Of a stretch of DNA of 64,000 nucleotides, positions 43,136-53,328 are shown one piece after another. This stretch comes from Parvularcula maris (GTDB lineage: Bacteria > Pseudomonadota > Alphaproteobacteria > Caulobacterales > Parvularculaceae). How positions within the stretch are numbered: the first letter of the stretch is position 1; each line of letters starts with the position of its first letter. The notes under the pieces were generated by a model that worked only from the letters and a program-made list of their open reading frames with translations, was not told the origin of the DNA and ran no database searches. The stretch covers positions 248,001 through 312,000 of the forward strand of contig NZ_JANIBC010000001.1 of the NCBI RefSeq assembly GCF_024505085.1, written 5' to 3'. The translations under genes were made by a program, and so were the position numbers.

Positions 43136-44473
43136 CTAGTTCCGCTCGCGGTCCGTCCGACGTTCTTGACGCTCCTGCATCCGCAGGCGGAGGACCTGAT
43201 CGTCGTCGAGGTTGTAGTTCTCGTCGATCTCCTGGTCGGAGAGCTCCTCGAGCCTTGCCTCGGTCAGGTTGTCGGCCACCAGACGGTCGCCTTCCATGCT
43301 GAGGGAGGAGAGGGGGAGGGGCACCTCCTTCTCGCCCATGCCGAGGACGCCGCCATGTTCGAGAACGGCGTAGACGGAGGAGCCGAGCTGGACGACCCGG
43401 CCGATCTCACCGATCTTCTCACCGTCCTGTCCGTAGACGGTCTTGCCGGAGAGGTCCGCGACCTTGGCTTCGGAGGATTCAGTGTTCTGACGGAACTCGA
43501 CCCTAGGCTCGCCGACGCGTTTGAACTCGATCTTGGGCTCGCCCTCGATCTTCACCTCAGGCTCGGCGCCGGTGAAGCGGATCGTCGGCTCGGAGCGTTC
43601 GACACGGATCTGCGGCTGGGCGCCCGCGCCGGTGCGCTGAACCTCCGCCTCGGGATGACGGACATAGACGTTCGCTTCCGCATCCTGGCCGTCGCGGGCT
43701 ACCAGGGTCATGCCGTCACGCGCCTCGGGGTTGGAGCGGGCCTTGCGGATGCGGGTCTGGATCTCGCCGCCATCCTCACCGACGGGAGCGGCGTTGAGGT
43801 CGAGGTCGATCCGGGGCTCGGGCACGGCCACGCGGACACGGGGCTGGCCCTGGCGCACGGTGATCTTCGGTTCGGCGTTCTCAACACTGACATTGGGGTC
43901 TGGCATCACCACCTCAATGATCGGGGCGGGCTGCTCGATGGTGATGGTCGGCATCTGCATGGTGATGATCGGCGCTTGCTCGCGCACCAGGATCTCCGGC
44001 TGACCGCCCGAGACGGTGACCTGGGGAGCGCTCTCCTCGACCATCACGGTGGAGGGCTCGTGGTCGATCTCGACGGAAGGCGCGCCGGTCAGAACATCGA
44101 CCACGCCCTGCACGGCGACGGTCTCGCGCAGGGTCACCTCCTCGCGGACCTGGCGGGTACGCCGATCGACCTCGACCGCCTGGCCGTCCTCTTCGAGCTC
44201 CATCTCGTCATCGTCCATGGCGGGCTGTGTGCGCACGGAGCTACCCTCGCGCTGCAGCTCGGTCAGGCGAGCGCGGCAGGCGCGGTCGTCGCCGCGGTTC
44301 ACGATGGCGAGGATTTCCGGCTCTTCCTGCACCTCATAGGCGTCGGAGCGGTCGACGAAGGTGAAGAGTTCCAGACAGGTATCGGTGACCTGCTGGGGGG
44401 TGATCTGGGGCGCGACGGTGGGCTGCGCCGCCGTTAGGGCGGAGCTCAAGAGAGCGGTGGTCAGTAGGGACAT
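43136..44473 (-). CDS. Secreted protein with beta-repeats and a PRC-barrel domain
   Basis: This 445-residue protein starts with a signal peptide (MSLLTTALLSSALTAAQP). From about residue 125 to 315 it carries irregular repeats of roughly 11 residues with an x-P-x-I-x-V core (EPKITVRQGQPRVRVAVPEP, QPQIRVERSEPTIRF). These suggest a repetitive extended beta structure. The C-terminal third has a PRC-barrel-like domain (GKTVYGQDGEKIGEIGRVVQL, VPLPLSSLSMEGDRLV). The tail is acidic, then rich in Arg and Gln. PRC barrels in secreted alphaproteobacterial proteins are common but uncharacterised. It stands alone downstream of fabB. Confidence 0.65.
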   Translation of the reverse strand: MSLLTTALLSSALTAAQPTVAPQITPQQVTDTCLELFTFVDRSDAYEVQEEPEILAIVNRGDDRACRARLTELQREGSSVRTQPAMDDDEMELEEDGQAVEVDRRTRQVREEVTLRETVAVQGVVDVLTGAPSVEIDHEPSTVMVEESAPQVTVSGGQPEILVREQAPIITMQMPTITIEQPAPIIEVVMPDPNVSVENAEPKITVRQGQPRVRVAVPEPRIDLDLNAAPVGEDGGEIQTRIRKARSNPEARDGMTLVARDGQDAEANVYVRHPEAEVQRTGAGAQPQIRVERSEPTIRFTGAEPEVKIEGEPKIEFKRVGEPRVEFRQNTESSEAKVADLSGKTVYGQDGEKIGEIGRVVQLGSSVYAVLEHGGVLGMGEKEVPLPLSSLSMEGDRLVADNLTEARLEELSDQEIDENYNLDDDQVLRLRMQERQERRTDRERN

Positions 44474-44591: not shown

Positions 44592-45812
44592 CTAGCCCTG
44601 GTACTTCGCCACGGCGAGGGAGGCGTTGGTGCCGCCAAAGCCGAAGCTGTTGGTCAGGACCGCCTCGAGGTCCATGCCCTCGCGAAGCTCGCGGATCACG
44701 GGCAGATGGGCGAACTCGTCGCCGATCTTCTCGATATGGGCGGAGGCCGCCAGGAAGCGCTCCTTCATCTGGAGGAGGCTGAAGATCAGCTCCTGGGCGC
44801 CGACCGCGCCGAGGGAGTGGCCCGTGAGGGACTTGGTGGAGGCGAAGGGCGGCATGTCCTGGCCGAACACCTCCTCCAACGCGCCCGCCTCGCGGGTGTC
44901 GCCAATGGGTGTCGAGGTGCCGTGGGTGTTGATGTAGCCGATTTTCTCGCGGACCGTCTCCAGCGCCTTCCGCATGCAGCGCGCCGCGCCCTCGCCGGAG
45001 GGGGCGACCATGTCGTAGCCGTCGGAGTTCGCAGCATAGCCGACGATCTCGCCCCAGATCTTAGCGCCCCTCGCCAGCGCCCGGTCGAGGGTCTCGACCA
45101 CCACCGTGGCGGCGCCGCCCGCGATCACGAAGCCGTCGCGGTCCGCGTCATAGGCGCGTGATGCCGTCTCGGGGGTGTCGTTGTACTTGGTCGACATGGC
45201 GCCCATGGCGTCGAACATGTTGCAGAGGGTCCAGTCGAGGTCCTCGCCGCCGCCGGCGAAGATCACGTCCTGCTTGCCCATCGCCACCTGCTCGTAGGCG
45301 TGGCCGATGCAGTGAACGGAGGTCGCGCAGGCCGAGCTGATCGAGTAGTTGAGGCCCTTGATCTTGTACGGGACAGCCAGGCAGGCCGAGTTGGTGGAGC
45401 TCATCGCCTTGGGCACCGCCGTCGGGCCGATCTTGCGCGGGCTCCCCGTCTCGCGAGTCTTGTCGGCGGCCATGACGATGGTCTCCGTCGAGGGGCCGCC
45501 GGAGCCCATGACGATGCCGGTCATCTCGTGGCTGACCTCGTCCTCGGTGAGCCCAGCGTCCTTGATGGCGTCGCGCATGGCGAGGTAGTTCCAGGCCGCG
45601 CCCTCGCCCATGAAGCGCCTCGTCTTGCGGTCGAGCACCTCCTCCACATCCACCTTGGGCTTACCCCAGACCTGCGACTTGAAGCCCAGCTCCGCCATTT
45701 GTTCGGAAAAGGTGATGCCGGAGATGCTCTCCTTCAGGCTCTTGGTGACCTCGTCCAGCGTGTCCCCGATCGAGGAGACGATACCCATTCCAGTGATGAC
45801 GACTCGGCGCAT
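44592..45812 (-). CDS. fabB: Beta-ketoacyl-ACP synthase I
   Basis: A 406-residue condensing enzyme. The nucleophile is Cys162 in SISSACATSVH. The two catalytic His lie in YINTHGTSTPIGD and STKSLTGHSLGAVG, and the glycine-rich C-terminus is NSFGFGGTNASL. The length and Cys position match E. coli FabB (163). It elongates saturated and unsaturated acyl-ACP and is required with FabA for anaerobic-type unsaturated fatty acid synthesis. It lies 77 bp downstream of fabA on the same strand. GGGAGAG precedes ATG 45812. Confidence 0.96.
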   Translation of the reverse strand: MRRVVITGMGIVSSIGDTLDEVTKSLKESISGITFSEQMAELGFKSQVWGKPKVDVEEVLDRKTRRFMGEGAAWNYLAMRDAIKDAGLTEDEVSHEMTGIVMGSGGPSTETIVMAADKTRETGSPRKIGPTAVPKAMSSTNSACLAVPYKIKGLNYSISSACATSVHCIGHAYEQVAMGKQDVIFAGGGEDLDWTLCNMFDAMGAMSTKYNDTPETASRAYDADRDGFVIAGGAATVVVETLDRALARGAKIWGEIVGYAANSDGYDMVAPSGEGAARCMRKALETVREKIGYINTHGTSTPIGDTREAGALEEVFGQDMPPFASTKSLTGHSLGAVGAQELIFSLLQMKERFLAASAHIEKIGDEFAHLPVIRELREGMDLEAVLTNSFGFGGTNASLAVAKYQG

Positions 45813-45889
45813 AGCCTCTCCCTTTCGAGGGGTTATGGGGCTTACCGCCCCTTTTTATTCGTTACGGATGCGGCAGGTGAGCCGCCGGA

Positions 45890-46423
45890 TCAGCCGAGGA
45901 CCGAGCCTTCGAGCTGTTCCATGGAGAAGAGGCCCACGCGCAGATCCTTGGCCTCGTAGATCTTCTTGTCGTCCACGAACATGGTGCCGTCGGCGATGGC
46001 GAGGACAAGTTTCCCCCGCATCGCTCGGCGGATGTCGATCTCGTAGCGGACGAGCTTGTTCTGAGGCCGCACCTGACCGGTGAACTTGACCTGGCCTGCA
46101 CCGAGCGCCCGGCCGTGGCCAGGGCTGCCGCCCCAGGTCAGGAAGAACCCGGTGAGCTGCCACAGCGCATCGAGGCCGAGGCACCCCGGCATCACTGGGT
46201 CGCCCGGAAAATGGCACTCGAAGAACCAGAGGTCCGGCGTGATGTCGAGCTCGGCGACGATCTGCCCCTTGCCGTAGGCCCCGCCCTCATCGGCGATATG
46301 GGTGATGCGGTCCATCATCAGCATGGGCGGCACGGGAAGCTGCGCCGTACCGGGGCCGCGCAGCCCGTTCCGGCCGCATTCGAGGAGCTCTTCTTTGGAG
46401 AAGGAGGACTTGCGTTCGGTCAT
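45890..46423 (-). CDS. fabA: 3-hydroxydecanoyl-ACP dehydratase/isomerase
   Basis: A 177-residue hot-dog-fold enzyme. The catalytic His71 is in [14 protein letters not shown] and Asp85 in [15 protein letters not shown], as in E. coli FabA (70 and 84). [10 protein letters not shown] near residue 35 and the late [10 protein letters not shown] are family-typical. It dehydrates 3-hydroxydecanoyl-ACP and isomerises trans-2 to cis-3-decenoyl-ACP, opening the unsaturated branch. It is first in the fabA-fabB operon. Confidence 0.96.
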
Positions 46424-46661: not shown

Positions 46662-48059
46662 TCAGTTCCCGCCCGCCGAAAGGCGTTCGAGGTCGAGCGT
46701 TGCCGCCTGGTAGGCGATAGCGGCGCTGGCGAGGGTCTGCTGGGCTTCGATGAGGCGGATGGAGGCGTTGGCCAGGGTCTGCTCGCGCAGATTGACGAGG
46801 AAGAAGTCGCTGGCGCCGCCTTGGAACTGCTGCTCTTCCGCTTCCAACAGGCGTTCCGCTTGCTGACGTTCCAGCTTCGTCAGCTCGAGAATGTCCGAGG
46901 CCGCATCGAGGCTGACCTGGAGATCGGCGAGCTCGCGGGCGATCTGGTCGCGGGCGAGCCGCTGACGCTGTTCGAGGCCTTCCAAAGCCGCCTCGGCGCT
47001 GCGGACACGGCCCCTCGCGGCGCGGCGTCCAAAGGGGACGGAGAAGGTCACGCCTGCTTTGAGTTCCGCAGCATCCCGGCTCGGGCCACCCGGAGCGATG
47101 GCGCCGTAATCGTCCGAGCCCTCGACGGAGAATTTGAGGTCAGGCTGAAGATCGTTCCGTGCCAGACGCATATCGAGTTCGAGCTGCTCACGGGCGATCT
47201 CGAAGAGCTGGAGGTCGGGCCTAGCATTGAGGTCGATCAGGGCGGCGCCGGTGCGCATCGGCATGCCGATCTCCTCGGGGAGCTGCGTTCGATCCGGCGC
47301 GGAAGGCTGGCCTTCTTCGTCGCGGTAGAAGAGGGCGAGGGCGTTCGCCGCCGTCTGCAGATCGCGCTCGGCACGCCTGACGAGCTCCTTCCGGCGAGTC
47401 AGGTTCTGAAGGTTCTCGGTGATGTCGATTGCGGCCCGCGCACCCGATTCGACCTCCCGGCGGAGGGCGGTGTCGCGGTTCGCCGCGATGCCGAGGAGCT
47501 CCTCATAGACCGTCAGAACACGTCCCGCCGCCACCCAACGCCAGTAGGCGAGAAGCGCATCCTGCTGCACTTCAATACGGGTCAGGAGGATATCGAGCTC
47601 GGCAGCGCTCACCTGCAGCCCCGCCCGCTCAATGCCGGCTCTTCGCGCGTCGATGGCGCGGTTTCGGAGGAGGTTGAAGATGACCCCGACCCTGATCTCG
47701 CCGCCCTGATCGGTGTAGTCGTAGTCCTCGTAGATCGGCAGCGTGCCCTGGGAGATGCGGTAGCCGCCATAGACCTCCGTGCCCAGAGGGCCGAGCGCCC
47801 GTCTCGCGCCGACTTCCGCCACGTCTCCCGACCAGAAGCCTTCAAGGCGGCTGGTGGCTCGGCTCCTCACCACCGTGTCGAAGACGCCCCTGGCGGAGAG
47901 CTGCTCGCCCAGCGCCTCGCGTCTTGCGGCCCTTGCCTCAAGCACCGCCGGGTAGTTGTCCGTGGCCGAACGGGCGACATCGCGGGGCAGGAGAACGTCC
48001 TGGGCCGCAGCGCTGCCGACGCTCAGCAGGCAGAGAAGAGCAAAAAGGAAGGCCCTCAC
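46662..48059 (-). CDS. TolC-family outer-membrane efflux channel
   Basis: A 465-residue protein with a signal peptide (MRAFLFALLCLLSVGSAAAQ). The two-repeat TolC architecture shows long helical hairpins ([63 protein letters not shown]) and short barrel strands such as GVTFSVPFGRR. Its GTG start overlaps the HlyD stop as GTGA. It would be the outer-membrane exit for the exporter formed with the two upstream genes. Being dedicated to one operon is typical of type I secretion-like sets. Repeat C follows. Confidence 0.9.
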   Translation of the reverse strand: MRAFLFALLCLLSVGSAAAQDVLLPRDVARSATDNYPAVLEARAARREALGEQLSARGVFDTVVRSRATSRLEGFWSGDVAEVGARRALGPLGTEVYGGYRISQGTLPIYEDYDYTDQGGEIRVGVIFNLLRNRAIDARRAGIERAGLQVSAAELDILLTRIEVQQDALLAYWRWVAAGRVLTVYEELLGIAANRDTALRREVESGARAAIDITENLQNLTRRKELVRRAERDLQTAANALALFYRDEEGQPSAPDRTQLPEEIGMPMRTGAALIDLNARPDLQLFEIAREQLELDMRLARNDLQPDLKFSVEGSDDYGAIAPGGPSRDAAELKAGVTFSVPFGRRAARGRVRSAEAALEGLEQRQRLARDQIARELADLQVSLDAASDILELTKLERQQAERLLEAEEQQFQGGASDFFLVNLREQTLANASIRLIEAQQTLASAAIAYQAATLDLERLSAGGN

Positions 48060-49090
48060 CGGGTCTGCGCTCCCGAGCTCGGCTGCTGCGTGAGGGTGGG
48101 GGGGAAGTTGTTGAGCTGGCGCCAGAGCTCAAAGCCCAGGGGCACGGTCTCGAACAAAACCCAGCCCCGCACCTTGGCGCCGAAGCGGATGAAGCGCTCG
48201 GAGGGCCAGGGCTCGTCGGTCTCCTCTGGCTCGGCGATCAGCACGCGGAACTGGCCGTTGGCCTGGGCAGTGGGGTCGACGGAGAGCACCTCGCCGGGGA
48301 AGGTGCCGAAGGCGATGGACGGCCAGCCGGAGAACTGCACCACGGGCCAGCCTTCGAAGACAAGGCGGACCTTCGAGCCAGGATGGACCAGCGCCACGTC
48401 GCGCCCGTCGATATAGAGCTCGACGACCCGCTTGGCGCCCTCCGGCTGGAAGGTGGCCACCGGGTCGCCCACCGAGACAGTAGTGGAGGAGGCGCCCGCA
48501 TTGATCCGCAGGATGGTGCCGTCGCGGGGCGCGTGGACGATCTGCTGGGCTTGGCGGGAGAGGTCCACCTGCTGGCGGGCGATAGCAGCCTCGGCGCTGG
48601 CGAGGTCCGAACGCAGCCCTTCGACGCGGATACGGGCCTGCTCGTAGGTGCGTCTGGCCGCAAGCCCGCTGTCGAAGAGGTCCCTCGTGCGCTGGAGGTC
48701 GATCCTGGCAGTGGAGAGCGCCGCGGCCGCCGCGTCGCGGGCGTTGAGGAGCTGGCGCTGCTCGGCGTTCAGACGCTCGATCAGGTTGGCGTCGTTGTCG
48801 GCGATCTTGAGGATGGGATCGCCCTCCTCGACCCTCGCGCCGTCCCGCACATACCAACGCTCGATCCGCCCCGAGACGAGGGCGTTGATCTCCTGCACCC
48901 GGTCGTTGGGATCGAGGGTGGTGACCGTTCCCGCCCCCACGGTGGTCTGTACCCAGGGCGTGAAGGTCAGGAAGACCAGCGCCGCGGTCAGCGTCAGGGC
49001 GATCATCGAGCCTGTCACCCGCATGACCCTTGGCATACGGATCGACTGAAGCGTGGTGAAGTACTGAAGGTGCTGCTCGCGAAGGGGCAT
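48056..49090 (-). CDS. HlyD-family periplasmic adaptor (membrane fusion protein)
   Basis: A 344-residue adaptor. There is one membrane helix near residues 27-46 (SMIALTLTAALVFLTFTPWV), a lipoyl-like half (INALVSGRIERWYVRDGARVEEGDPIL) and a helical hairpin (LNAEQRQLLNARDAAAAALSTARIDLQRTRDLF). The second lipoyl half is VHAPRDGTILRINAGASSTTV, and a beta-barrel domain follows. It bridges inner-membrane exporter and outer-membrane channel. The start is 1 bp after the stop of the ABC gene and the end overlaps the TolC gene, so all three are one translational unit. Confidence 0.9.
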   Translation of the reverse strand: MPLREQHLQYFTTLQSIRMPRVMRVTGSMIALTLTAALVFLTFTPWVQTTVGAGTVTTLDPNDRVQEINALVSGRIERWYVRDGARVEEGDPILKIADNDANLIERLNAEQRQLLNARDAAAAALSTARIDLQRTRDLFDSGLAARRTYEQARIRVEGLRSDLASAEAAIARQQVDLSRQAQQIVHAPRDGTILRINAGASSTTVSVGDPVATFQPEGAKRVVELYIDGRDVALVHPGSKVRLVFEGWPVVQFSGWPSIAFGTFPGEVLSVDPTAQANGQFRVLIAEPEETDEPWPSERFIRFGAKVRGWVLFETVPLGFELWRQLNNFPPTLTQQPSSGAQTR

Positions 49091-49091
49091 A

Positions 49092-50828
49092 TCAGGCGTC
49101 CTCCACCGCGCGCACGGGCTCGAGCTTCGTCATGGCGCTCCGCATACCCAGGATGGCGGGGTCGTCCGAGATGGTCTGCTTCTGCGCGCCGATGCAGAGG
49201 TAGCGGTCGAAATGCATTTGCGGCTCGGCGGAGGAGAAGATGATGAGCGTGGTCGGCTCGTCGCAGGTGACGCAGAGCCTGTCCACCGCACGCTGAAGGA
49301 AGGCCGAGGGCAGGGTGTCGAAGAGCTGGTTCAGGATGAGCACCTTCGGTCTGGCGAGGATCGCCGCGGCCAGCTTGAGGCGCATGGTTTCGCTCACTGA
49401 CAAAGGCCAGCCTGTCACCGAGAGCTGGGTGTCGAGCCCGTCCTCGAGCTCCTCCATCACCTCGTCGAGACCGACGCAGGCGAGGGTGTCGAGCATCTCC
49501 GCGGAGGTGGCCTCCTCGCGGGCCAGGGTCAGGTAGTTCCTGATCGACATCTCCACCACGGTGGGCCGGTCGAGGACGATGACGAAGCGGCGAAGGGTCA
49601 GAACCTCGATCGAGGTGATGTCGTAGCCGCCCAGGGTCAGCGTCCCCCCCTTCGGGCTCTCGAAGCGCTTGAGGAGGTTGGTGAAGAGGCGCTGCACGCC
49701 GTGGCTCTGCGCCCTGGCATAGACGATCTGGCCGGCGGGAATCTCCACATCGAAGACCGCAGGCGCACCCCTGGCATGACCCTTGACCGCGTCGAAGACG
49801 AGGGAGCCGTGGGGCAGGTCGGGGACCTCCTCTCCGGTCGGCTCCTCCAGGACGATCCCGTCGAGGAGGGAGAGCTCCTCAGCGGCCGCGCAGAGGTCGT
49901 AGAAGTAGTTGAGGTAGCTGCCGAGCTGACTCACCCCGTAGAAGGCTACGGAGAGGACGAGCTCGGCCGCGACGAGCTGGCCTAGGGTGAGCTGTCCCTG
50001 GATGACCAGCCAGCCGCCTAGGCCCAGAAGCGCGGCGCTCGCGGTGGCGTAGAGGAGGAGGAAGCCGATGGTCTGGGAGAAATGGCGGCGGAAGTGGCGC
50101 CGATGCGCCATGACGTAGTCGTTGGTCTCCTGATCGGTGCGCTTCAGGGCGTAGGCGATGTGCTCGTGGCTCTTGAAGTAGCCGTTGGAGCCCGCCAGGG
50201 ACTGGAGCCACGCGGCGGTCTCGTGCTTCTCCTGGGACAGCTTGACCGCGGTCTTGATCGCGCCTCCCCCCCAGACGAGCCAGATCAGCCAGATCAGCGC
50301 GATGACCACCACGTTGAAGGCGAGAAAGAGCGGGTGGTAGAAGGATGTCAGGATGAAGCCCACCGCCGCCTGCAAAAGCACCGTGAAGCCGCCGATCAGA
50401 AGGATCGGCAGGGCCTTCACCACGTTGAGGATGTCGAAGTAGCGGTTGAACAGGACCGAGCGTCCATCGTCCTGGAAGAACGGCTTCTGGGCGTAGAGCG
50501 CCTTGAGAGCGATGGCGGAGGTCAGCCGCGCGTAGAAGCGCCTGGCGAAGATCTCCATCAGGTGCACGCGCATGGCGTTGAGAAGACCCGAGGCCAGAAG
50601 AAGCCCGAAAAGCGTCAGCGACAGCACCACGAGGGGCACGGCAAGCCCGGTGAAACCGACCGAGTTGATCAGCACCTGCACCGCGATCGGGGTGGCGAGG
50701 GAGAGGACACTGATGCCGATGCCGTAGATGACGGCGAGCCCCAGATACCCGGTCTCCGGCCTCAGAAGATCGGCCACCAGCTTGATGACATGGCGAGCCG
50801 AGGGGCTAGCAGACGGGTCTGCACTCAC
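49092..50828 (-). CDS. ABC exporter subunit with a degenerate (pseudo-ATPase) nucleotide-binding domain
   Basis: This 578-residue protein has an N-terminal transmembrane domain (helices between about 30 and 310) and a C-terminal cassette-like domain. Every expected ATPase motif is altered. Walker A is ARAQSHGVQR (371-380) with no GKS/T. The Q-loop region reads FVIVLDRPTVVE (415-426). The signature is PLSVSETMR (475-483) instead of LSGGQ. Walker B is VLILNQLFD, with Asn500-Gln501 in place of Asp-Glu, and the H-loop is IIFSSAEP with no His. The frame is intact and the operon tight, so it is not an obvious pseudogene. It probably cannot hydrolyse ATP. GTG 50828 follows GGAG. Confidence 0.85.
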   Translation of the reverse strand: MSADPSASPSARHVIKLVADLLRPETGYLGLAVIYGIGISVLSLATPIAVQVLINSVGFTGLAVPLVVLSLTLFGLLLASGLLNAMRVHLMEIFARRFYARLTSAIALKALYAQKPFFQDDGRSVLFNRYFDILNVVKALPILLIGGFTVLLQAAVGFILTSFYHPLFLAFNVVVIALIWLIWLVWGGGAIKTAVKLSQEKHETAAWLQSLAGSNGYFKSHEHIAYALKRTDQETNDYVMAHRRHFRRHFSQTIGFLLLYATASAALLGLGGWLVIQGQLTLGQLVAAELVLSVAFYGVSQLGSYLNYFYDLCAAAEELSLLDGIVLEEPTGEEVPDLPHGSLVFDAVKGHARGAPAVFDVEIPAGQIVYARAQSHGVQRLFTNLLKRFESPKGGTLTLGGYDITSIEVLTLRRFVIVLDRPTVVEMSIRNYLTLAREEATSAEMLDTLACVGLDEVMEELEDGLDTQLSVTGWPLSVSETMRLKLAAAILARPKVLILNQLFDTLPSAFLQRAVDRLCVTCDEPTTLIIFSSAEPQMHFDRYLCIGAQKQTISDDPAILGMRSAMTKLEPVRAVEDA

Positions 50829-51666: not shown

Positions 51667-53328
51667 CTAGGCGGTCTTCGCCACCATGACCTCTCGTTCG
51701 CGGGGGAGGAAGGCCGGGCGGTCTTCCGTCCCCTCGTCCAGGCGGCTGGCGGCGTGCAGCATCGCCTCCCTTCCCCGGCAGTGAATGTCCCAGGCGGTCG
51801 ACGGGTCGGGCGCCTTGAAAAGGAACCGCACCTCCATGCCGTCGCGGCTATGGCCGACGACCTGCACCTTGGCCTCGTCGAGCTCGATCACCTCTTCTTC
51901 CCCCTCGACGAAGCGGCTCCACTCATGCCGGAGAGCCTCCACATTCGCCCGGTGGTCGAGGGTCAGAAGGACATACTTGCTCATCGAGCTGTCGGTCTTG
52001 GTCCAGTTCTCGAAGGTCTCGCCGACAAAGTTCAGGACCGGCGCCATGAGCCGCCGGTCGTCCCAGGTCCTGAGCCGCACATGGGTGAAGCCGATCTTCT
52101 CCACATAGGCGAGCTCGCCCTCGAAGATCACGGCATCGCCGATCCGCGCTGTCTTGGCGAAGGCGATCTGCAGGCTGGCCATGATGTTGCCGAGGGCCTC
52201 CCTGGCGGCAAAGGCCAGGACGAGACCGATCGCTCCTGCCGACCCCAGAAGGGACAGGCCGAGGGTCTGGTCGAGGTTCGACTGGAGCAGGACGAAGGCC
52301 GTGCCGACGAGCAGCATCAGCACGAGGAAGAAGCGCCTGACGGCCGATAGGGTCGTGTAGTAGGCGCGGTCCGCCTCGGCGTCGGGCTGGGTGGGGTCGC
52401 TGCCTTCGGTGTTCGAGACCCGCTCGATCACGGCGTCCATGATCGAGACCACGAGGGCCGCGGCGGCCAGCACCACGGCGGCGGTGGTGATCGGGTCGAT
52501 GACTGAGTTGACGGTGTTGGAGAAGGTGAACGCCACCGCCTGGGCGACCGAGAACGCTGCCGCGAAAACCAGAAGCGCCGCCGGTGTCCGCACCGCACGG
52601 ACGATCCAGGGGATGAGCGCCACCTCGCCCACCCCTGCGGCGGCCTTGCTCATCGCCCAGTAGGCCAGTGCCGCCAGGCCGAACGCTGCCAGCAGAAGGA
52701 GGGGAAGGGCGATCACCTCCCACCAGGAGAGGGTCCAGAAGGCCTGCTGGCGAAGCGCGGAGGGAAGAGCCCGCTCGATCGGGCCGGGCGCGAAATGCGC
52801 GTAGAGATCGGGAATGTTCTCGGTGGTCTGGCGCGGGAACACCCAGACGGGGTCCTCCCCCTCGATCTGCAACCTGGCCAGCCTGATCGCCACGGGCCGG
52901 TCCGGCAGCGTGACCAGGGCGAGGCGGAGGCTGCGCCGCTCCTCCCCCGCCACCGGATCGTTGCCGCTGGTGCGAACGGCCCTCGCGTCGGGCCGGTCCG
53001 GCAGCGTTGCCCAGTCGAGAAGGATGGCCCGCTCGATGACGAGGTGGAGCTGCTCGGCCAGAACCGGACCAAGGCGCTCCTGCTCGGCCTCAGGGAGGTA
53101 GCTCAGTTCCAGCGCCTGCGCGGCGCGGACCCAGTCCTCGCGCTGCGCTGCGGCCAGGAAGGTCTCGATGCTCGCCTGCGGGGTTTCCAGATTGACCGCA
53201 CGGTCGGTACTGGGAAGCTGCGGGTTGATGCTGTCTACGGCATAGACATAGGGACCGCTGCTCTGCGCACATGCCACCCCCATGAGAAGCACGGCGAGGA
53301 CGGCGGCCAGGGCAGCGAGGCGGTGCAT
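51667..53328 (-). CDS. MscS-family mechanosensitive channel
   Basis: A 553-residue protein with a signal peptide (MHRLAALAAVLAVLLMGVACAQ), a periplasmic domain of about 170 residues and about five membrane helices. The MscS pore helix and beta domain are LGLSLLGSAGAIGLVLAFAAREALGNIMASLQIAF and FEGELAYVEKIGFTHVRLRTWDDRRLMAPVLNF. It opens under membrane tension to release solutes. The periplasmic extension makes it a larger MscS variant than the classical 286-residue protein. It is convergent with GST and downstream of galU. Confidence 0.9.
   Translation of the reverse strand: MHRLAALAAVLAVLLMGVACAQSSGPYVYAVDSINPQLPSTDRAVNLETPQASIETFLAAAQREDWVRAAQALELSYLPEAEQERLGPVLAEQLHLVIERAILLDWATLPDRPDARAVRTSGNDPVAGEERRSLRLALVTLPDRPVAIRLARLQIEGEDPVWVFPRQTTENIPDLYAHFAPGPIERALPSALRQQAFWTLSWWEVIALPLLLLAAFGLAALAYWAMSKAAAGVGEVALIPWIVRAVRTPAALLVFAAAFSVAQAVAFTFSNTVNSVIDPITTAAVVLAAAALVVSIMDAVIERVSNTEGSDPTQPDAEADRAYYTTLSAVRRFFLVLMLLVGTAFVLLQSNLDQTLGLSLLGSAGAIGLVLAFAAREALGNIMASLQIAFAKTARIGDAVIFEGELAYVEKIGFTHVRLRTWDDRRLMAPVLNFVGETFENWTKTDSSMSKYVLLTLDHRANVEALRHEWSRFVEGEEEVIELDEAKVQVVGHSRDGMEVRFLFKAPDPSTAWDIHCRGREAMLHAASRLDEGTEDRPAFLPREREVMVAKTA

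Follow-up and report, generated by a model that had tools for sequence, protein, structure and literature searches.

A Natural Family of ABC Exporter-Like Proteins with Degenerate ATP Sites, Encoded with HlyD- and TolC-Type Partners

Introduction

Type 1 secretion systems, such as HlyB-HlyD-TolC, bring together an ABC protein, an HlyD adaptor, and a TolC channel. The ATP site in an ABC dimer is formed by the Walker motifs of one half and the signature of the other. Tripartite export can also be driven by protons, as in EmrAB-TolC, where a proton-driven inner-membrane part of the MFS type is joined to an HlyD-type adaptor and TolC. The membrane domains of ABC exporters have themselves been reported to work without their cassettes. 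LmrA from which the cassette had been removed carried out proton-coupled transport, with a glutamate in TM6 required for the dependence on delta-pH (PMC2704374), and MsbA without its cassette transported ethidium driven by delta-pH (PMC4979069). So far, the case for ATP-free function of ABC exporter membrane domains rests on these two engineered proteins. A direct test would be offered by a family from nature that lacks both ATP sites, is under strong selection in two phyla, and is wired to HlyD and TolC partners; such a family is described here. We found no description of it in the literature covered by our searches (degenerate or inactive ABC proteins, HlyD/TolC, Riemerella, Sphingomonas, and Shewanella), a partial coverage with subscription papers mostly outside it.

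Operon structure and gene content

The operon lies on the minus strand at positions 46662 to 50828 of the window, by which we mean the whole stretch of 64,000 nt that was analyzed, and consists of three tightly packed open frames in the order ABC, HlyD, TolC; all features given below are on the same strand. The first gene (49092..50828), with a predicted GTG start, encodes a 578-amino-acid protein with a type IV exporter fold, referred to here as pseudo-ABC. After a gap of 1 bp follows the gene for an HlyD-type periplasmic adaptor of 344 amino acids (48056..49090), in which the motifs QFSGWP and ELWRQLNNFPP, kept family-wide, were recognized. The third gene (46662..48059) encodes a TolC-type outer-membrane channel of 465 amino acids, and its predicted GTG start overlaps the adaptor stop codon by 4 bp (GTGA).

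The adaptor and the outer-membrane protein matched the Pfam families HlyD_3 and OEP, respectively, so that the set of parts of a type 1 secretion system is complete at this locus. The adaptor scored highest with the RND adaptors (TIGR01730), below the cut-off of that model. In pseudo-ABC, the membrane half was over the Pfam cut-off for ABC_membrane (E value of 6e-7), and the cassette gave a sub-threshold ABC_tran score of 19.2 bits, against a cut-off of 25. The best curated transporter model in NCBIfam was HlyB, with 86.5 bits against a cut-off of 725.55, and the protein fell under the cut-offs of all four models HlyB, LssB, PrtD, and bacteriocin_ABC.

The operon is immediately followed on its strand by genes for a fabB-like ketoacyl synthase and a fabA-like dehydratase (44592 to 46423), with about 240 bp between the TolC-type gene and fabA. 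We abandoned the idea that the operon has a fixed position beside fabA-fabB, as this arrangement was not seen in the neighborhoods of relatives. Farther out, the window encodes a 445-amino-acid protein with a PRC-barrel domain and long imperfect repeats of the "EPxIxV" kind (43136 to 44473) and a 553-amino-acid protein in which a mechanosensitive-channel (MscS) domain is combined with a long N-terminal region (51667 to 53328).

Loss of the ATP-binding and hydrolysis motifs

The cassette of pseudo-ABC (residues 338 to 565; 49134..49817) is degenerate at every ATPase motif. In alignments with intact exporters, Walker A is replaced by AQSHGVQRL in place of GTSGAGKST (residues 373 to 381; 49686..49712), the signature reads LSVSE rather than LSGGE (residues 476 to 480; 49389..49403), and Walker B reads VLILNQ rather than VLVLDE (residues 496 to 501; 49326..49343), the DE pair at residues 500 and 501 having become NQ. 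The D-loop Asp is Pro, and the H-loop His is replaced by S533 (49230..49232). The Q-loop region reads LDRP (residues 419 to 422) and its replacement was placed at D420-R421 (49566..49571), although the residue that matches the Gln depends on the alignment.

This loss is common to all 45 aligned homologues from the Alphaproteobacteria and a second proteobacterial class, with scattered single residues surviving. In 44 of the 45, Gln, Glu, or Asp takes the place of the Walker A Lys. None has the Walker B Asp and 44 lack the Glu, the pair usually reading Asn-Gln or Ser-Gln; at the H-loop, Asn predominates. The first Gly of the signature was kept in none and the second in 7. The replacements are themselves conserved, with R421 and D504 invariant, E480 present in 42/45, and P507 in 34/45, and the cassette has a set of conserved residues of its own (K387, R421, P475, K485, and D504).

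In all three Bacteroidota homologues the signature and the H-loop are lost and Walker B is altered, and two of them retain a Walker A-like GKS or GKN, suggesting that nucleotide binding may matter there. The simplest order of events would be that the signature, Walker B, and the H-loop were lost first and Walker A later. Genes of Novosphingobium, Sphingomonas, and Riemerella that are annotated as "ABC transporter ATP-binding protein" probably carry the wrong name as far as ATP is concerned.

Predicted structure and conserved residues of the membrane half

An AlphaFold2 model of the pseudo-ABC monomer, built with eight sequences and of moderate quality (pLDDT 72.9, pTM 0.47), has six membrane helices followed by a cassette whose fold is kept; the membrane half corresponds to residues 31 to 320 (49869..50738). 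Matches to type IV exporters span residues 9 to 567. The first Foldseek match was PCAT1 (E value of 1.6e-21), and in structural comparison TmrB was at the top (Z 27.7), effectively tied with HlyB (8dck; Z 27.2) and CydDC (near 27). Pseudo-ABC therefore has the architecture of type IV ABC exporters, six membrane helices joined to a cassette, but not their ATP-binding and hydrolysis motifs. The first-pass annotation of this DNA had described an uninterrupted frame packed with HlyD and TolC homologues, a normal transmembrane half, a general cassette layout, and replacement of all ATPase motifs, and the open frames and their spacing, the Pfam match, the model, and the alignments bear out this description.

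The membrane half has conserved residues of its own. Every family member aligned, 45 from the Proteobacteria and 3 from the Bacteroidota, has Glu at the position of E289 in TM6 (49962..49964), and none of the 21 canonical exporters compared does; in the model, E289 lies about two turns into TM6 from the periplasmic end. Seventeen positions, including E289, H165, K201, Q51, and Q153, are identical in 26 full-length members of both phyla except for one Val and one Ile, and these residues were not found as a set in the 21 canonical exporters. The model places H165 at the short TM3-TM4 loop, K201 and W207 in a cytoplasmic extension, and Q51 and Q153 in hydrophobic stretches.

Distribution and phylogeny

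Within the window's genus, the gene was present in 7 of 10 genomes including the window's own, the six other copies being 60 to 68% identical, and as far as the search shows it was not found in the remaining 3. A scan with one genome per species recovered further contigs labeled Parvularcula, Parvularculaceae, Hyphomonadaceae, Caulobacterales, and Erythrobacteraceae. For wider searches, the adaptor alignment served as the query, and the counts include the window's own genome. The adaptor was recovered in 3/289 genomes of the class, 6/299 genomes of the phylum, and 12/60 of one further alphaproteobacterial family, and it was common in one genus of the second proteobacterial class (49/60 species). 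At all 35 loci fetched by these adaptor-led searches, the pseudo-ABC gene was located just upstream of the adaptor gene.

Carriers among plasmid records were Novosphingobium, Sphingobium, Sphingomonas, and Croceicoccus, together with Persicobacter, Aureibacter, and Riemerella of the Bacteroidota, a phylum sampled through plasmid records only. In Novosphingobium aromaticivorans DSM 12444, the family member is SARO_RS19820 and its adaptor SARO_RS19815. When the Aureibacter protein was compared with 72,556 plasmids (E value of 1e-12), matches were confined to genera carrying the family. In a maximum-likelihood tree, the 26 full-length members were separated from the 21 canonical exporters of many types with a support of 100/100, in an unrooted tree with a long branch between the two groups, and the Bacteroidota members adjoined the proteobacterial part of the family. 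The adaptor is likewise conserved across both phyla (QFSGWP and E.WR..N.FP); adaptor and pseudo-ABC thus appear to be inherited together.

Some individual loci have features of their own. The Riemerella anatipestifer operon (L072, 5657 to 10011) lies amid murB, an alanine racemase fusion, murA, and rplU, and the record is labeled a plasmid but looks chromosomal. On plasmid pHAL16 of Sphingobium sp. KCTC 72723 (L068, 1 to 8156), a DUF2309 gene immediately precedes the operon and a gene for carbonic anhydrase is close by, and homologues of the two genes upstream in pHAL16 occur near the operon copy of locus L036.

Selection versus decay

The dN/dS ratio in close gene pairs was 0 to 0.04 for the cassette and 0 to 0.015 for the membrane half. 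These pairs were taken from the second proteobacterial class because copies within the window's genus are too far apart. Decay had been named beforehand as the reading to be expected if close relatives had intact motifs or if dN/dS were raised in this copy alone, and the first-pass annotation had called for homologues to be collected beside HlyD and TolC genes. Among the homologues collected, the motif losses recur in 45/45 proteobacterial members; no close relative has intact motifs, and the dN/dS of the cassette is low in the close pairs of the second class. A single copy among dozens (locus L064, 2504 to 4008) is split into two frames, by a frameshift or a sequencing error, and could be taken to favor decay. 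Given the shared loss in 45 homologues, the defective cassettes in the Bacteroidota, and the open frames and constraint in two phyla, decay is refuted for the family and has next to no credibility as an explanation of this gene. Open frames and constraint likewise rule out an annotation error. Defective ATP sites in relatives from two phyla give the appearance of an old, selected pump that does not run on ATP.

Genomic neighborhood and regulator genes

Across the 25 neighborhoods compared, no further gene was conserved apart, often, from a LysR gene; neither an ATPase gene, nor one for an active ABC partner, inside the operon or close to it, nor one for an obvious protein substrate recurred. 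In one genus of the second class, a divergent LysR gene is located just upstream at 14/14 loci; it is missing at locus L029, from another genus. LysR genes were nearby in 11 of 27 alphaproteobacterial loci, and the window's own operon copy has no adjoining LysR gene. A seemingly conserved neighbor of no known family was rejected, as it is an antisense frame of LysR genes. The LysR regulator that accompanies many copies hints at a small molecule whose export is inducible.

Possible mechanisms of a tripartite exporter without ATP sites

Because the signature has been lost along with the Walker motifs, no complete ATP site would remain in either a homodimer or a mixed dimer, and, judging from its sequence, pseudo-ABC most likely no longer binds and hydrolyzes ATP productively. 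Together with the lack of a conserved linked ATPase gene, this leaves an outside ATPase with a small probability. The first-pass annotation had proposed an exporter energized by another ATPase, a passive or proton-driven conduit, or a structural envelope complex, and the first of these fares worst, as the signature is lost and no ATPase gene travels along with the operon. One form of it, in which another locus encodes an intact ABC half-transporter that dimerizes with pseudo-ABC and supplies ATP hydrolysis, as in TmrAB and CydDC, seems to us distinctly unlikely. Many heterodimeric exporters have one degenerate site (PMC8277102, PMC12038006), the genome has other intact fused exporters, and TmrB was the top, if tied, structural match; however, with the signature gone neither site would be complete, and no ABC partner gene is conserved nearby. 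In known heterodimers, a signature is retained by the half whose Walker B is weak, as the alignment shows for Escherichia coli MdlA. Strong constraint on the cassette, its own conserved residues, and the GKS or GKN of two Bacteroidota members could instead indicate that the cassette still binds and slowly hydrolyzes ATP through a non-standard site, but the near-universal replacement of the Walker A Lys and of the Walker B Asp and Glu makes this highly improbable.

Other readings dispense with ATP altogether. A gated dimer might join HlyD and TolC as a passive or substrate-gradient conduit through which an abundant metabolite exits downhill, with the cassette gating or sensing. A fold under strong selection despite the disappearance of every ATP motif would fit this, as would the LysR genes alongside, but the conserved TM6 Glu and the other polar residues of the membrane half exceed the needs of a simple pore, and an open path across both membranes would be leaky unless tightly gated; we regard such a conduit as unlikely. 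The constant linkage of the pseudo-ABC gene to its own adaptor is also what a non-transport envelope complex would show, with pseudo-ABC as an inner-membrane anchor or scaffold for HlyD-TolC, perhaps serving another pump. This we consider quite improbable, given that the operon has a TolC-type channel of its own and the membrane half is strongly conserved, both of which point to the passage of something.

The incomplete ATP sites and the precedent of LmrA and MsbA favor an ATP-independent exporter, either proton coupled or gradient driven. In this proposal, the inner-membrane subunit, the HlyD adaptor, and the TolC channel would form a tripartite exporter. The ABC exporter fold of the inner-membrane subunit comes closest to that of HlyB and the bacteriocin exporters, and selection would retain the cassette as a folded component of the dimer, where it probably holds the membrane halves together or gates them. 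The drive would most likely be the proton motive force or a substrate gradient, with E289 in TM6 as a candidate coupling site and a small molecule possibly exported upon induction. The analysis demonstrates the operon, the fold, the motif loss, its conservation, and the selection; we infer transport, its substrate and energy source, and the role of E289, and give the proposal as a whole a nearly even chance. Several points count against it: the model puts E289 close to the periplasmic end of TM6, where it might instead help to dock the adaptor, bind substrate, or support the structure; the precedents are engineered; two of the three Bacteroidota members have GKS or GKN; and the model is of moderate quality. 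More tentatively, we speculate that a natural and widespread ABC-fold family may have abandoned ATP to become proton-coupled tripartite pumps, with coupling through the TM6 Glu and the dead cassette as a structural or gating clamp. The family may be a case of a motor losing its engine and staying useful.

Comparison with known systems

Type 1 secretion systems such as HlyB-HlyD-TolC and the bacteriocin ABC exporters share with this locus the same three parts in one operon and an ABC fold that matches end to end, and HlyB and bacteriocin_ABC are the best NCBIfam matches of pseudo-ABC, far below cut-off. Unlike type 1 systems, pseudo-ABC has no ATPase motifs and no extra N-terminal peptidase-like domain, and no conserved substrate gene lies beside the operon. 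TmrAB, CydDC, BmrCD, and TM287/288 likewise have an exporter fold with a degenerate cassette, but they pair it with an active half and keep the motifs for one complete site. In contrast, pseudo-ABC has lost the motifs for both kinds of site, including the LSGGQ-like signature that completes a partner's site, and has no partner gene alongside.

EmrAB-TolC offers a parallel in its proton-driven architecture, although its inner-membrane fold is unrelated to that of pseudo-ABC. LmrA-MD and MsbA-MD are ABC exporter membrane domains that reportedly function in the absence of ATP through coupling to protons. Like E289, LmrA E314 is a TM6 glutamate, and the two are compared here at the level of the helix. 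LmrA-MD and MsbA-MD are laboratory truncations and are not tripartite, whereas pseudo-ABC represents a natural family.
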